A DNA stretch of 35,572 nt, from contig JAAVCJ010000025.1 in assembly GCA_014802385.1 (NCBI GenBank), positions 190,853-226,424 on the forward strand, read 5' to 3'. The stretch comes from Bacteroides sp. Lineage in GTDB: Bacteria; Bacteroidota; Bacteroidia; Bacteroidales; Muribaculaceae. The stretch's first letter is position 1; the number at the start of each line of letters is the position of its first letter. Made by a program: the position numbers and the translations under genes. This document shows positions 28,686-35,572 of this stretch, piece by piece. A model generated the notes under the pieces. It made no database searches, was not told the DNA's origin, and saw only the letters and a list, made by a program, of their open reading frames with translations.

Positions 28686-30365
28686 TCAATCGGGGAGCAA
28701 TTCTATCGAGTCAATCTCGATGATTGTTTTACCATCTTTACCTTGACTCTCTATCTGCAAATAAAAAGTGTCACTATTAAATGGCCAGCCTTGGGCATAC
28801 CAAGGTTTAGACGAGTCATACAAATCTTCCTGAATATTGACAACAGCACCATTAATCTTGAATATAATATCATACTCTGTCCACTTACATTCAAGATCTA
28901 TCCATCGATCAATCAGCTTGTCAACTGCGACAATGGATTGCTTTATATTTTTTAGGCTATCATTCATCTGCATCGTTGAGGCTCCGCAAGCAATTTCATT
29001 TGGACACCTTCCATCATACCTAAGCATAAACATTTCTCCACTATTGGGTACCTTTCCGAGATTTTCATGAGATGGTAATAGACGCACAGTTGCCCTACTG
29101 TCTAAAGCAGCCGATTTGATTTTCACTCGAGCTCTGACTGTTCCATACTTAAAGGCATGTATATTACGAGTATCAGCCTGCGCATTCCCTTTCAGAACCA
29201 TACGTTTTCCTTTAGATACCACACTTCCTGTAACATTCCAATCTCCGTCAAGTTTTTCAAATGTAAAGCTGGTTTTAAAATCAGGATTAGCACCCTCAAT
29301 CATACGCCTGCGGCGCTCTTGAACAAACCATGCAACCGTGTCGATAAATTCACGGTCGCGCATATCAGTCTTACGAGAAAAATGATACATTCCCGCACCA
29401 CCTTCATAATAAGCTAATGACGCGTTACGATATACTCCGTTTTTACGGAATGATGTCATGTATTTCAGACCTCGGTCTCGCAAACAGTTTTTTGAATCAA
29501 CTGATGCCGCAAGATCAAACTCCATCTCTAAACCCATATGGTGATTATACGCTAACTCACAGGCACGGTCGACGCGATTATCAGGGATACGCTTATTCCA
29601 AAAATAAGTAGGTTGTATATAAGCTGCGTCAAAACCAAATTGTTTCCATTCACTAAAACCTTGTGCTGTATAATAAGGAATCCAATAGAATAGCTTGCCC
29701 ATTGAATGAATATAATTACCAACAACAGTTGTAACCGGACGGCTTTGTAAAGCCTTCTCCGACATCCAATAGAATCCCGACAACTCAATATTATTTAAAT
29801 CAAGAGAATCAAATCTTGCTGTCAATTGGTCAATATACCACTTACAGGCTGCAACTCGATCTTCATCTTTAGCAAAATCTAGCTGGCGTCCATTCAGTTC
29901 TCCCCAATCTTTTTGCCCTAAAGGTGGCTCAGGAATAGCTATAACTACCTTATGTTTGAATGATGGAATACCAATTTTTTCAATCTCTTGCCCAATACAC
30001 TCGTCCAGGGCCTGAATACCCTTACCATCGGCAAAATGTCGGTCAGCAAGCCATATCCAATCCTCCTTCTTAGACAATGGTGCATCAAGACGTTTCTCAA
30101 ACGACACGCCTCGTCCACTATCAAATTCCAGAAAAAGAAATCCATCAAACAACCAATCACGATTGCCAAATCTATTTTCATGTACAACATAGGGGCGAAT
30201 CTGATCAACCGTAAAATCCATACGTTGAACTCCGCCTTGATAAATCAAAACCAGATCACGAATATCAGTTTTGAGATAATATCCGTCATCACTAAATTGT
30301 GCTACGCACTCACTTGCAGTAAAAATTGATAATGCAGCGAAAATTAACTTAAAATTATTTTTCAT
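28686..30365 (-). CDS. Secreted DUF4855-domain protein with C-terminal lectin/glycanase-like domain
   Basis: 559 residues. The signal peptide (MKNNFKLIFAALSIFTASECVA) is followed by a domain (about 30-340) resembling DUF4855, with DLVLIYQGGVQ, DWLFDGFLFLEFDSGRG, LSGFYWMSEKAL, KQFGFDAAYIQPTYFW and LGLEMEFDLA-type segments (here MGLEMEFDLA). These look like strand-ends of a TIM barrel with acidic residues, as in carbohydrate-active enzymes. The C-terminal 170 residues (FKYGTVRARVKIKSA...WIDLECKWTEYDIIFKINGAVV) look like a concanavalin-type sugar-binding or GH16-like fold. A glycan-acting surface or periplasmic protein is inferred. It is a single gene with no SusC/SusD pair or regulator nearby, and is more AT-rich than the core genes. 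Confidence 0.7.
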   Translation of the reverse strand: MKNNFKLIFAALSIFTASECVAQFSDDGYYLKTDIRDLVLIYQGGVQRMDFTVDQIRPYVVHENRFGNRDWLFDGFLFLEFDSGRGVSFEKRLDAPLSKKEDWIWLADRHFADGKGIQALDECIGQEIEKIGIPSFKHKVVIAIPEPPLGQKDWGELNGRQLDFAKDEDRVAACKWYIDQLTARFDSLDLNNIELSGFYWMSEKALQSRPVTTVVGNYIHSMGKLFYWIPYYTAQGFSEWKQFGFDAAYIQPTYFWNKRIPDNRVDRACELAYNHHMGLEMEFDLAASVDSKNCLRDRGLKYMTSFRKNGVYRNASLAYYEGGAGMYHFSRKTDMRDREFIDTVAWFVQERRRRMIEGANPDFKTSFTFEKLDGDWNVTGSVVSKGKRMVLKGNAQADTRNIHAFKYGTVRARVKIKSAALDSRATVRLLPSHENLGKVPNSGEMFMLRYDGRCPNEIACGASTMQMNDSLKNIKQSIVAVDKLIDRWIDLECKWTEYDIIFKINGAVVNIQEDLYDSSKPWYAQGWPFNSDTFYLQIESQGKDGKTIIEIDSIELLPD

Positions 30366-30786: not shown

Positions 30787-30846
30787 AATTATAAATGTTT
30801 GTTTCTTGTAAATTTAACATATAATACAACTTTTTGTTTCATAATA

Positions 30847-30878
30847 ATTGCATAATTAAATTTTATGTAATATTTTTG
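30847..30878 (+). promoter_or_regulatory. Promoter of the arginine operon
   Basis: ATTG (30847-30850), a 20-nt spacer and TATTTTTG (30871-30878) match the Bacteroidota pattern. The predicted start near 30885 leaves a leader of about 245 nt before the first gene. Confidence 0.75.
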
Positions 30879-30884
30879 CATGGA

Positions 30885-31128
30885 ATTTAAGAATAATGAC
30901 GACCATTAAATCAATAAATATTATCTCATCTTTCGTGTCGCGCGATACTTTGGCAGTATTGCGACGACGATAATGGTCGTGTCAACATCTCTATTATTTC
31001 CTGATACATACATCTATTAAACTTAACCCTGACAATTATCAGGGTCAATGTGTATTCTTTGAGACCAGGAAATTTCCCAAATCAATTAACATTACACTTT
31101 ATATCATTTATAAAACAAACATCAAGAA
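30885..31128 (+). ncRNA. Structured 5' leader of the arginine operon, unassigned
   Basis: The leader has no gene but two well-defined folded domains. Domain 1: ACGACCATTA (30899-30908) pairs perfectly with 30971-30980 and encloses GTCGC/GCGAC (30937-30941 with 30961-30965, extended by CGT/ACG) and ATACT/AGTAT (30945-30949 with 30955-30959) around a TTGGC loop. Domain 2: ATTTCCTG (30996-31003) pairs with CAGGAAAT (31066-31073), then ATACA/TGTAT (31004-31008 with 31051-31055), enclosing ACCCTGA/TCAGGGT (31026-31032 with 31039-31045). No terminator T-tract is visible, so control would be translational or by an RNA-binding factor. A riboswitch or other cis-regulatory element for arginine synthesis is a reasonable inference; I recognise no known motif. 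Confidence 0.55.
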
Positions 31129-31689
31129 ATGGATTGTTTAGTACGTGAAGCTACAGCCAACGATATCAAACACGCTGAGCACATTTGCGATCTTATTTAC
31201 GAATCGGCACTGCAACGCGGTACCGGCATAGCACGCCGCTCACCCGAATACATTGCTGAAAAGATGAATGGTGGCAAGGCTATTGTCGCACTTGACGGCG
31301 ATCGCCTTGTCGGCTTCAGCTACATCGAGAGTTGGGGGCATGGCGATTTCGTAGCAACCAGCGGTTTGATAGTCGATCCCGAATACCGCCATCAAGGTCT
31401 TGCTGAGAGAATTAAGCGCAATACCTTTGCATTGGCCCGACGCAAATTCCCTGATGCAAAACTATTCAGCATCACGACCTCATTGCCTGTTATGAAACTC
31501 AACACCCGACTCGGTTATGTCCCGGTAACCTTCTCCGAGCTCACTGATGATGAAGAGTTTTGGTCAGGTTGTAAAGGCTGCATAAACTATGATATTCTGC
31601 AACGTAACAACAATGTTCGTTGCATTTGCACCGGCATGCTGTTCGATCCTAAAGAACACACGACCGATAATAATATTGATAAACAATAA
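31129..31689 (+). CDS. GNAT-family N-acyltransferase at the head of the arginine operon
   Basis: 186 residues of the GNAT fold. The acyl-CoA site is seen in TSGLIVDPEYRHQGLAERIKRN (78-99) with the RxxGxA loop R87-H-Q-G-L-A92. The C-terminal third has KLNTRLGYVPVTFSEL and a Cys pair in SGCKGC. It is the first gene of the arg operon, 13 nt before argG. No argA- or argJ-type gene is visible in the window, so it is the natural candidate for the enzyme that acylates glutamate (acetyl- or succinyl-glutamate synthase). The position supports this; the substrate is not proven by the sequence. Confidence 0.8.
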   Translation: MDCLVREATANDIKHAEHICDLIYESALQRGTGIARRSPEYIAEKMNGGKAIVALDGDRLVGFSYIESWGHGDFVATSGLIVDPEYRHQGLAERIKRNTFALARRKFPDAKLFSITTSLPVMKLNTRLGYVPVTFSELTDDEEFWSGCKGCINYDILQRNNNVRCICTGMLFDPKEHTTDNNIDKQ

Positions 31690-31702: not shown

Positions 31703-32902
31703 ATGAGCACTCCCCAAAAAGTTGTTTTAGCATATAGTGGCGGCCTTGACACATCATTTGCCGTCAAGTATCTCACTCAAGATTTAGGCTATGAGGTGCA
31801 TACAGCCCTTGCCAACACTGGAGGTTTCACCAAAGCCGAGTGTGAAGCCATCGGAGAGCGTGCCCTGCAATTAGGCGCCGCATCACATGTCACTCTTGAC
31901 ATCGAACAGGAATACTATAATAAATGTATCAAATACATGGTATTCGGTGACATACTGCGCAACGGCACATATCCTATCTCGGTGAGCAGTGAACGTACGT
32001 TCCAAGCTATCGCTATTATCGAATATGCCAAGAAAATAGGCGCTGATGCTGTGGCTCACGGTTCTACCGGTGCCGGTAACGATCAAGTTCGATTTGATCT
32101 TACATTTGCAATCCTTGCTCCCGAGATTGAGGTCATCACACCCACACGTGACATGACTCTCACACGCGAATATGAAATTGATTATCTCAAAAAACATGGT
32201 TATGAGGGAGACTTCAAACGTATGGAATATTCTATCAATAAAGGTTTGTGGGGCACGTCAATCGGTGGTAAAGAGACATTGAAATCAGAGCTCACACTCC
32301 CAGAGAGCGCATATCCATCACAAATTACCGAGCACGGAGAGGAGACTTTGAAAATCGGATTTGAAAATGGCGAGATTGTTAGCGTCAATGGCAAAAATTA
32401 CGCTGATAAGGTCGACGCTATTCGTGAAGTCGAGGCCATAGGCTCACGTTACGGCATAGGTCGTGACATGCACATTGGCGACACAATCATCGGAATCAAG
32501 GGTCGAGTTGGATTTGAGGCCGCAGCTGCCATGCTCATTATCGGTGCACATAAAATGCTCGAAAAGCACACGCTCACCAAGTGGCAACTCTATTGGAAAG
32601 ATCAGGTTGCAAACTGGTATGGTATGTTCCTGCATGAAGCGCAGTACCTCGAACCCGTCATGCGCGACATCGAGGCTATGCTCGACAGTTCACAACAACT
32701 CGTTACCGGTGAGGTTGAACTCACTTTGCGACCATACTGCTTCCAGTGTGTCGGCGTATCATCTCCCTACGACCTGATGAAAACCGATTTTGGCGAGTAT
32801 GGCGAAGTCAACAAGGCTTGGACAGCCGACGATGTCAAAGGATTTACCAAAATCATGGGTAACCAGATGAAGATTGCCTACATGAAACGTAACAAGAAAT
32901 GA
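31703..32902 (+). CDS. argG: Argininosuccinate synthase
   Basis: 399 residues from the ATG at 31703. Upstream in-frame codons lie inside the GNAT gene. The N-terminal ATP-pyrophosphatase loop AYSGGLDTS (10-18) is followed by the argininosuccinate-synthase landmarks AHGSTGAGNDQVRF (about 114-127) and EYSINKGLWGTS (about 177-188). It joins citrulline and aspartate with ATP. Its stop overlaps argC by four bases (ATGA, 32899-32902), so translation is coupled. Confidence 0.96.
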   Translation: MSTPQKVVLAYSGGLDTSFAVKYLTQDLGYEVHTALANTGGFTKAECEAIGERALQLGAASHVTLDIEQEYYNKCIKYMVFGDILRNGTYPISVSSERTFQAIAIIEYAKKIGADAVAHGSTGAGNDQVRFDLTFAILAPEIEVITPTRDMTLTREYEIDYLKKHGYEGDFKRMEYSINKGLWGTSIGGKETLKSELTLPESAYPSQITEHGEETLKIGFENGEIVSVNGKNYADKVDAIREVEAIGSRYGIGRDMHIGDTIIGIKGRVGFEAAAAMLIIGAHKMLEKHTLTKWQLYWKDQVANWYGMFLHEAQYLEPVMRDIEAMLDSSQQLVTGEVELTLRPYCFQCVGVSSPYDLMKTDFGEYGEVNKAWTADDVKGFTKIMGNQMKIAYMKRNKK

Positions 32903-33867
32903 TTAACGTCGGCATAATAGGAGGCGCCGGCTATACTGCCGGTGAATTAATACGTATTCTCGTCAATCACCCCGAGGTTAACTTGGTGTGGATACACAGT
33001 AACAGCAACGCCGGACAGCCTATTACAGCTGTTCACTCAGGCCTTGTTGGTGATACTGATTTGAGTTTCATCGATACATATAACTTTGACAATATCGACG
33101 TTATGTTCCTGTGCTCAGGACACGGTGCAAGCACTAAGTTTCTTAATGAGCATACCGTTCCCGAGTCACTTCATATCGTTGACCTATCGCAGGATTTTCG
33201 CGATGAGACCAATAACTTTGTCTACGGCCTTCCCGAAGTAAATGCTGACCGTACAAAGGGGGCATTACGTGTTGCCAATCCGGGTTGCTTTGCCACGGCA
33301 ATACAGTTGGCGATACTACCGGCTGTAAAAGCAGGGTGCATTGATGGCGAAATTCATGTCACTGCTGTCACCGGTTCAACAGGTGCGGGAGTTAAACCTA
33401 CGTCAAAGACTCATTTCAGCTGGAGAACGGACAATATGTCGACCTACAAGGAATTTGAGCACCAGCATCTGCTTGAAATTGGCCGTACTATTAACTCGCT
33501 TACACCCGAAGGCACAGCGACTCCAGACGTTAACTTCGTCCCTGTGCGCGGTGACTTCGCCAGAGGAATCTTTGCATCGGTCTACTTTGACACCGAACTG
33601 ACCGCCGAACAATTAATAGCATTGTACAAATCGTTTTATAGCGACGCCACGTTTACACATGTTGTTGATTTTGACCTTGACCTGAAGCAAGTTGTCAATA
33701 CAAACAAGGCATTGATAAGCGTGACCAAACATGGTCGCAAGGCTCACATTGTCAGCGTTATCGACAATCTGCTCAAAGGCGCTTCAGGCCAGGCAGTCCA
33801 AAACATGAATCTGATGTTCAATCTCGACCAGGCCTGCGGTCTTAGACTCAAGGCCTCCGGCTTTTAG
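32899..33867 (+). CDS. argC: N-acyl-gamma-glutamyl-phosphate reductase
   Basis: 322 residues. The N-terminal NADP-binding fold starts VGIIGGAGYTAGELIRIL (4-21). The catalytic Cys is C130 in RVANPGCFATAIQL, and the His region GDFARGIFASVY lies further on. It reduces the acylated gamma-glutamyl phosphate to the semialdehyde. Length and spacing fit the type 1 family. In this organism the acyl group may be succinyl instead of acetyl, judging from the ArgF' in the same operon. Confidence 0.95.
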   Translation: MINVGIIGGAGYTAGELIRILVNHPEVNLVWIHSNSNAGQPITAVHSGLVGDTDLSFIDTYNFDNIDVMFLCSGHGASTKFLNEHTVPESLHIVDLSQDFRDETNNFVYGLPEVNADRTKGALRVANPGCFATAIQLAILPAVKAGCIDGEIHVTAVTGSTGAGVKPTSKTHFSWRTDNMSTYKEFEHQHLLEIGRTINSLTPEGTATPDVNFVPVRGDFARGIFASVYFDTELTAEQLIALYKSFYSDATFTHVVDFDLDLKQVVNTNKALISVTKHGRKAHIVSVIDNLLKGASGQAVQNMNLMFNLDQACGLRLKASGF

Positions 33868-33894: not shown

Positions 33895-35010
33895 ATGAAT
33901 TGCTTTGATGTATATAGTTTATACGAAATAGAGCCGGTTAAAGGCGTGGGCTCATATGTGTTCGACGCCGATGGAAACAGCTATCTTGATCTTTATGGCG
34001 GTCATGCTGTGATTTCCATAGGTCATGCTCACCCTCGGTATGTCGAGGCCATATCCAATCAGGTCGCCAAACTTGGCTTCTACTCCAACTCGGTGCTTAA
34101 TTCACTTCAGCAGCAACTCGCCGAGAAATTAGGTAAATTATCGGGTTATAGCGACTACAGCCTGTTTTTGTGTAATTCAGGTGCCGAGGCCAATGAAAAT
34201 GCTGTAAAGCTCGCATCATTCGTGACCGGTCGTGACCGCATACTTGCATTCGCCAAGTCATTTCATGGACGCACGTCAGGTGCAGTCGCACTCACTGACA
34301 ACCCGCGCATCGTGTCACCTTTCAACTCCACCGATAAGGTTACTTTTGTGCCGCTTAACGATATCGAAGCCGTCGAAAAAGAACTATCGACCCAACAGTA
34401 TGCCGCCGTTATTATCGAGGGCATACAGGGTGTTGCAGGAATTTACATGCCCGATGATGATTTTCTTGTAAAGTTACGTGAACTGACACTTAAATACGGT
34501 ACCAAGTTAATTCTTGATGAGGTGCAGTCTGGTTACGGTCGTACAGGTCGTTTCTTTGCCCATCAATACTCGGGTATTCGTCCCGACATTATCTCTATGG
34601 CCAAGGGAATGGGCAACGGCTTCCCAGTTGGAGGTATCCTTATTGCACCCGATATCAAACCGATCAAGGGCATGCTCGGAACCACATTTGGTGGCAATCA
34701 TTTGGCATGCGCCGCTGCGATTGCCGTGCTTGATGTTATTGACAGCGAGAAACTCATTGAGAATGCGGCTGAAGTAGGACAATACGCAATCGAGCAATTA
34801 AATAAACTTGGCACACCGGTCAAGGAGGTTCGTGGCCGAGGCCTCATGATTGGTATTGAAATTGATGGTGACGCATCTGCCGCTCGTCGCAAACTCTTGT
34901 TTGACAACCATATCTTTACAGGCGGAGCCGGTGCCACAACAATACGACTACTGCCTGCTCTTAATGTCACCAAACAGCATATAGATCAATTTATTGAAGC
35001 TTTCAAATGA
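33895..35010 (+). CDS. argD: Acylornithine aminotransferase (acetyl- or succinyl-ornithine)
   Basis: 371 residues of the class III PLP aminotransferase fold. The phosphate-cup NSGAEANENAVKLA (94-107), the LILDEVQSGYGRTG strand (205-218) with the PLP-binding Asp, and the Schiff-base lysine K237 in SMAKGMGNGFPVGG are all clear. It transfers an amino group to the acylated glutamate semialdehyde. It lies 27 nt after argC. Its stop overlaps argF' by four bases (ATGA, 35007-35010). Confidence 0.95.
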   Translation: MNCFDVYSLYEIEPVKGVGSYVFDADGNSYLDLYGGHAVISIGHAHPRYVEAISNQVAKLGFYSNSVLNSLQQQLAEKLGKLSGYSDYSLFLCNSGAEANENAVKLASFVTGRDRILAFAKSFHGRTSGAVALTDNPRIVSPFNSTDKVTFVPLNDIEAVEKELSTQQYAAVIIEGIQGVAGIYMPDDDFLVKLRELTLKYGTKLILDEVQSGYGRTGRFFAHQYSGIRPDIISMAKGMGNGFPVGGILIAPDIKPIKGMLGTTFGGNHLACAAAIAVLDVIDSEKLIENAAEVGQYAIEQLNKLGTPVKEVRGRGLMIGIEIDGDASAARRKLLFDNHIFTGGAGATTIRLLPALNVTKQHIDQFIEAFK

Positions 35011-35572
35011 AAAAATTTACTACCGTAAACGATATAGGCCCTCTTGACAAGGCCGTTAAAGAGGCGCTTGAAGTCAAAGCCAACCGATTTGGCTACAGTG
35101 ACCTGGGGCGCAACCGCACACTGCTGATGGTTTTCTTCAACTCAAGCCTACGGACACGCCTCTCAACTCAGAAAGCAGCACTTAATCTCGGCATGAACGT
35201 TATTGTCCTCGATGTCAACCAAGGCGCTTGGAAGCTAGAGACCGAACGTGGTGTGATCATGGACGGAGACAAGGCCGAGCACATGCTCGAGGCAATCCCC
35301 GTCATGGGTTCCTACTGCGACATAATCGGAGTACGTTCCTTCGCCCGATTTGAAGACAAGAATGCCGACTATAATGAGGAGATTCTCAATCAGTTCATAA
35401 AATATTCGGGTCGCCCCGTATTCTCGATGGAGGCAGCTACACGTCACCCTCTGCAAAGCTTTGCCGACCTCATTACAATCGAGGAATACAAACAAACCAA
35501 GCGTCCAAAAGTGGTGTTGACATGGGCACCGCACCCCCGTGCATTACCTCAAGCGGTACCGAACTCGTTTGC
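35007..35572 (+). CDS. argF': N-acylornithine carbamoyltransferase ArgF', probably N-succinylornithine-specific (partial)
   Basis: 188 residues are present before the window ends. The carbamoyl-phosphate loop is FFNSSLRTRLSTQKA (43-57), the ArgF' form of the STRT motif. NQGAWKLETERGVIMDGDKAEH (71-92) and SMEAATRHPLQSFADL follow. The whole visible part closely resembles B. fragilis succinylornithine transcarbamylase. The residue that separates acetyl- from succinyl-ornithine specificity (Glu92 in Xanthomonas AOTC, Pro90 in B. fragilis SOTC) is Ala90 here. Ala is not the acetyl-specific Glu, so succinylornithine is the likely substrate. It would yield N-succinylcitrulline, which needs a deacylase not seen in the window. 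Confidence 0.93.
   Translation, partial: MKKFTTVNDIGPLDKAVKEALEVKANRFGYSDLGRNRTLLMVFFNSSLRTRLSTQKAALNLGMNVIVLDVNQGAWKLETERGVIMDGDKAEHMLEAIPVMGSYCDIIGVRSFARFEDKNADYNEEILNQFIKYSGRPVFSMEAATRHPLQSFADLITIEEYKQTKRPKVVLTWAPHPRALPQAVPNSF

Follow-up and report, generated by a model that had tools for sequence, protein, structure and literature searches.

Attenuators are classic for the his, trp, leu and thr operons, and arginine synthesis is usually credited to repression by ArgR. In Proteobacteria, the leaders of those four operons are amino-acid attenuators: a short ORF carries a run of codons for the end product, and the ribosome controls the hairpins of the leader RNA. The leader described here, which lies ahead of an arginine operon in the genome of a gut bacterium of the Bacteroidota, resembles these systems in its short ORF with end-product codons, in hairpins that the position of the ribosome would control and in the biosynthetic operon downstream. 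It differs from them in phylum, in being arginine-specific, in that the proposed sensor consists of the last three codons, and in that no canonical terminator/antiterminator pair is seen in the leaders of the genus.

Leaders with arginine codons have been described in other settings. In the Salmonella speF leader, orf34 contains consecutive arginine codons, and ribosome pausing at low arginine permits downstream expression, with the involvement of Rho; the RR pair is internal (codons 12–13), and arginine codon 34, beside the stop, is dispensable (PMC6386406). The leader reported here likewise has a short ORF with consecutive arginine codons, and a role for Rho is a candidate feature. However, the speF leader controls ornithine decarboxylase, whereas the present one precedes arginine synthesis, and no sequence relation between the two is seen. 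In Escherichia coli tnaC, a ribosome stalled at the end of the leader blocks Rho from a rut site (PMC8429421). In that catabolic system free tryptophan is the inducer and TnaC works as an arrest peptide, whereas starvation for charged tRNA-Arg is proposed for the genus leader. The rbfL uORF of Staphylococcus aureus (MVLKYRKR) also senses arginine limitation through ribosome pausing on arginine codons (PMC13009471); unlike the genus leader, it controls how a biofilm regulator is translated, by covering the regulator's ribosome-binding site, and lowers expression. Within the same phylum, leader-peptide attenuation has been inferred for amino-acid biosynthetic operons of Flavobacterium psychrophilum, although the main text contains no arginine example (PMC9723704). 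Searches of the open-access literature turned up no described attenuator for an operon of arginine biosynthesis.

The arginine operon and its leader ORF

The window is the whole stretch of DNA that was analysed, 35,572 nt of contig JAAVCJ010000025.1 (assembly GCA_014802385.1, family Muribaculaceae). Its GNAT–argG–argC–argD–carbamoyltransferase cluster is an arginine biosynthetic operon (Table 1). A gene for a 559-aa DUF4855 protein (PF16147) lies upstream of the leader and is read from the other strand (28686–30365).

Table 1 Leader elements and operon genes, in window coordinates
Feature	Position	Strand	Evidence or remark
Bacteroidota-type −7 element (TAnnTTTG form, ...TATTTTTGC)	30869..30879	+	sequence; TTTGC kept in 5/5 genus leaders
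Leader-peptide ORF, product MTTIKSINIISSFVSRDTLAVLRRR	30896..30973	+	equivalents of 23–25 codons, same end, in L002–L005
Closing helix P0 (10 bp, domain 1)	30899..30980	+	30899–30908 (codons 2–5) pairs with 30971–30980 (stop codon and next 7 nt)
Inner hairpin P1 (domain 1), 3′ arm encoding V-L-R-R-R	30936..30969	+	30936–30949 pairs with 30955–30969; present in 5/5 leaders
Proposed sensor codons CGA CGA CGA, adjoining TAA stop	30962..30970	+	unchanged in 5/5 species
C-rich, G-poor, mostly unpaired RNA past leader stop; candidate Rho-loading (rut) region	30981..31025	+	
Domain 2, 8-bp closing helix and inner 7-bp hairpin 31026–31045	30996..31073	+	no canonical U-tract
GNAT-family N-acyltransferase, first operon gene	31129..31689	+	Pfam PF00583
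argG, argininosuccinate synthase	31703..32902	+	TIGR00032
argC	32899..33867	+	TIGR01850
argD-type acyl-ornithine aminotransferase	33895..35010	+	TIGR00707 subfamily match, below its cut-off
N-acyl-ornithine carbamoyltransferase, truncated by window end	35007..35572	+	PF02729, PRK04523

Reading of the sequence ahead of GNAT reveals an ATG ORF of 25 codons that ends in three arginine codons. The pairings of this leader had been described in an earlier note as non-coding; that description is incorrect for domain 1, which overlaps the ORF that was then missed. In our opinion, the leader is very probably an attenuator of the arginine operon that works through an arginine leader peptide. On the best reading of the sequence, the signal would be charged tRNA-Arg, with attenuation mediated by the ribosome, and a riboswitch is not favoured.

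The −7 element containing TATTTTTGC, which we take to be of the Bacteroidota promoter type, marks a putative start site. About 20 nt separate this element from the start of the leader ORF, and 155 nt separate the ORF stop from GNAT; by comparison, the 5′ UTRs of Bacteroides thetaiotaomicron have a median length of 32 nt (PMC7366714). A second conserved sequence, TTGCATAA, is found upstream of the −7 element, near position −33. In the region 30845–30880 and the matching sites of L002–L005, it is kept past the TTG in four leaders; the fifth, L003, has TTGCATAT. Together with TTATGTAA, it forms an imperfect inverted repeat in the window, a possible operator.

The arginine content of the ORF is high: each 23–25-codon leader ORF contains 4–7 arginine codons, compared with 6.5% arginine in the genes of the window. 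CGA is not a rare codon here (43 of 202 arginine codons), and background short ORFs seldom end in RRR (4 of 1578).

Distribution and conservation

The sample of the genus comprised eight genomes, five of which have argG and GNAT. The sequence TTGCGACGACGATAA occurs once in each of these five and in none of the three without argG, two of which are just 56% and 85% complete, and it is always the end of the leader ORF. The suggestion of the earlier note that this is a candidate regulatory RNA thus holds to the extent that a regulatory leader accompanies argG and is missing where argG is missing. The five peptides are MTTIKSINIISSFVSRDTLAVLRRR, MTVYTLYYISSSNKSRYTLSVLRRR, MTNFTTHNILSFVSRDTLTVLRRR, MTPASKHIVNVLVSRNASRVLRRR and MTYTKTYRQIRSIRNASRVLRRR. 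Their lengths (25, 25, 24, 24 and 23 codons) differ by whole codons, with the ATG and the TAA retained. The N-terminal halves have diverged; the five species nevertheless share an invariant 19-nt leader end, AGTATTGCGACGACGATAA, even though four-fold degenerate sites of the adjoining GNAT gene show just 27–51% identity between them.

No arginine leader was found before GNAT among the 43 other family members examined, where two looser matches to the RR rule are not leader-like; nor was one found ahead of argR in argR–GNAT operons. Searches with an 18-mer of the leader end, exact in 84,980 species and allowing one mismatch in 393 genomes of the order, gave matches outside the genus in unrelated sequence with other neighbours. 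When a looser leader pattern was applied to 397 genomes of the family, the only arginine leaders matched were that of L004's genome and those of two species of a second genus, g4 (L019 and L024); the remaining matches appear to be chance matches in coding sequence. The g4 leader peptide, MTSI[AV]DT[HN]SYLRRTVKVRR, precedes the same operon, and the g4 stop region CGACGATgATGCTCTGT nearly matches CGACGATaATGCTCTGT of L004. The leaders of the two genera may have one shared origin or may have converged. The earlier note had called for a comparison of leaders across Bacteroidales; the conservation to be expected at that breadth is not borne out, the leader being limited to one genus and to two species of a second genus of the same family. 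It should be mentioned that the leader is also present on a contig, record JAMPBP010000001.1 (L082), that equals contig C11 of G003 in length; the title of this record, 'Clostridiales bacterium', looks wrong.

Fold of the leader RNA

The two folded domains that had been described from the sequence were both recovered by folding. The whole leader has a folding energy of −49.9 kcal/mol (z = −4.1), a value equalled by none of 200 dinucleotide shuffles. Domain 1, in which the closing helix P0 surrounds the inner hairpin P1, is located within and just past the ORF.

The 3′ arm of P1 holds arginine codons in all five leaders. In a MAFFT alignment of these leaders, 91% of the P1 pair cells are standard and there are no two-sided changes. 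The changes are one-sided (A–U to G–U and the like) because the 3′ arm is invariant; therefore, pair counting can neither show two-sided covariation nor prove this helix. The P0 sites pair in each of the five species, and the sequence of the helix is different every time. The native energies sum to −57.8 kcal/mol, whereas shuffling of the partners gave −28 ± 5 and, in 2000 trials, never so good a sum; when partners were swapped between species, an equal or better sum was obtained in 4 of 120 arrangements, the native one included; the weakest native P0 is that of L005 (−6.1). These five related sequences lend moderate support to co-evolution of the two P0 arms.

Domain 2 is less firmly defined. 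Folded alone, it forms the closing helix 30996–31003/31066–31073, a further 7-bp helix and the hairpin 31026–31032/31039–31045 (z = −2.55, 3 of 200 shuffles as good), but when the leader is folded as a whole, an alternative takes the place of the 8-bp helix. The folding of domain 2 is only weakly better than that of shuffles in three of the five species (L003–L005), and its helices have no common sequence across the five, in all of which a hairpin occupies the corresponding downstream place.

Proposed mechanism

The leader ORF is hidden in the fold and ends in three arginines, so ribosome stalling probably senses arginine shortage. Transcription would begin shortly ahead of the 25-codon ORF. 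With ample charged tRNA-Arg, the ribosome would complete the ORF and depart, upon which P1 and P0 could close, P0 burying the region of the leader start. The C-rich RNA past the stop would then be left open, and transcription would stop before GNAT–argG, with Rho as the most likely agent. A shortage of charged tRNA-Arg would instead stall the ribosome on CGA-CGA-CGA, where it would cover the start of P0 as well as the 3′ arm of P1. The stalled ribosome would also shield the RNA that follows, allowing the polymerase to read through.

Termination and the possible role of Rho

A terminator scan of the window found no canonical terminator. In the genus leaders, moreover, folds of the downstream RNA with a stalled ribosome and without a ribosome were largely alike, with no clear terminator/antiterminator exchange. 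For this reason, the claim made here is one of attenuation by ribosome position and not of the classical two-hairpin form. Over the 90 nt that follow the stop, C exceeds G in all five species (percentiles 76–99.6 of 90-nt windows), the excess being strong in one species and moderate to weak in the rest, so that the identification of a Rho-loading region is suggestive only. Rho is encoded in the source genome (TIGR00767, 614 bits). The lack of a terminator, the excess of C over G after the stop and the presence of Rho together favour Rho over an intrinsic terminator. We give the Rho step of the attenuation about an even chance of being correct.

The most serious alternative is a variant of the same explanation, a classical attenuator in which the hairpin of domain 2 acts as an intrinsic terminator, in competition with an antiterminator that escaped detection. 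A hairpin does lie at the corresponding place in every genus leader, CCTGAT at 31000–31005 could compete for ATCAGG of the inner hairpin, and both g4 leaders have a terminator-like hairpin, with a T-rich tail after its GC stem. However, the hairpins of the genus itself lack a U-tract, the constrained folds show no switch, the scan of the window is negative and the leaders L003–L005 fold weakly. We therefore regard this variant as unlikely, while allowing it perhaps one chance in a few.

A ribosome could also be arrested by the peptide itself. TnaC senses tryptophan, and the fungal AAP senses arginine, in the exit tunnel of the ribosome; by analogy, the C-terminus of the nascent leader might sense free arginine or ornithine there. 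The pattern SR[DYN]...VLRRR is partly kept in residues as well as in codons, and the C-rich region past the stop is reminiscent of tnaC. The C-terminal residues, though, double as arms of P1, and their conservation thus has another cause, whereas the N-terminal two thirds, which would be expected to matter, are divergent. Moreover, a feedback-repressed pathway would need arginine-induced stalling to mean off, the reverse of the tnaC wiring. An arrest peptide is accordingly improbable.

ArgR in the genus

In many relatives, argR lies directly ahead of GNAT; in the leader-bearing genus it is located elsewhere (in the source genome at G000:C25:236992-237192, L077). ArgR genes were found in four of the five leader-bearing genomes of the genus. 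The search gave no match in the fifth, G003, which keeps the leader; this genome is 91% complete, and the absence of ArgR from it is therefore uncertain. The effector motif GTI.G and the preceding GYA..........D stretch are kept in all 13 ArgRs sampled outside the genus, with small departures in single sequences. This core is lost in all four ArgRs of the genus (L077, L108, L109 and L110), where it is replaced by ATAVLGDLL, ATAVLGDLL, ASISVTDTL and ASIPIGDLL, and the DNA-binding motif QATLSRDL is retained in all four. The source-genome ArgR aligns with solved ArgRs over both domains, with GTIAGDDT replaced. We infer that the ArgRs of the genus have probably lost arginine binding, although some acidic residues remain. 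Four genomes retain an argR gene with the DNA-binding motif intact, so ArgR may still act.

An ordinary ArgR-regulated promoter followed by a long passive leader is very improbable. The ArgR genes of the four genomes would fit such an arrangement, and the conserved TTGCATAA could be half an operator. It does not account, however, for the conservation of the ORF with its RRR end, and it has to accommodate both the loss of the effector core and a genome, G003, with the leader and no ArgR match.

In the leader-bearing genus, the proposed attenuator has probably assumed the role of ArgR, which has lost its conserved effector core. The search for ArgR gave no match in the two g4 genomes (L019 and L024) as well, but other relatives have neither an ArgR match nor the leader, and loss of ArgR alone therefore does not bring the leader. 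As a tentative proposal, which we hold with less than even confidence, arginine sensing may have moved from ArgR to a CGA-ended leader peptide guarding a Rho site, that is, a starvation-induced attenuator that dispenses with an intrinsic terminator. The genus would thus display a closely bounded evolutionary switch, with a repressor core lost and a leader gained, in a phylum in which leader-peptide control is little studied.

Comparison with riboswitches

A search of 4227 Rfam families, at gathering and relaxed thresholds, gave no credible match to the leader. In the aligned promoter-to-P0 region, leaving aside the coding 3′ arm of P1, the ATGAC start and the promoter bases, only scattered columns are kept and no conserved aptamer core was found. 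A riboswitch, in which the two domains would bind arginine or a pathway intermediate directly and the ORF would be incidental, would suit the strong folding, the two compact domains and the site ahead of an amino-acid operon, but it is the least probable reading, given that a conserved ORF ending in arginines underlies domain 1, that no conserved unpaired core of the kind an aptamer would show is present, that the domain 2 helices have no sequence in common across the five species, that the leader has no Rfam match, and that the element is limited to one genus. A ligand-binding arginine riboswitch is thus not supported; of the fold, only the coding 3′ arm of P1 is invariant, and the other helices vary freely in sequence. 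An ORF-based sensor can be mistaken for a riboswitch if folding alone is examined.

Other observations on the source genome

No hisG was found in the source genome (G000, 99.6% complete); the organism may therefore be a histidine auxotroph, though it is an arginine maker. A search for chorismate-binding enzymes in this genome returned two chorismate-family genes.
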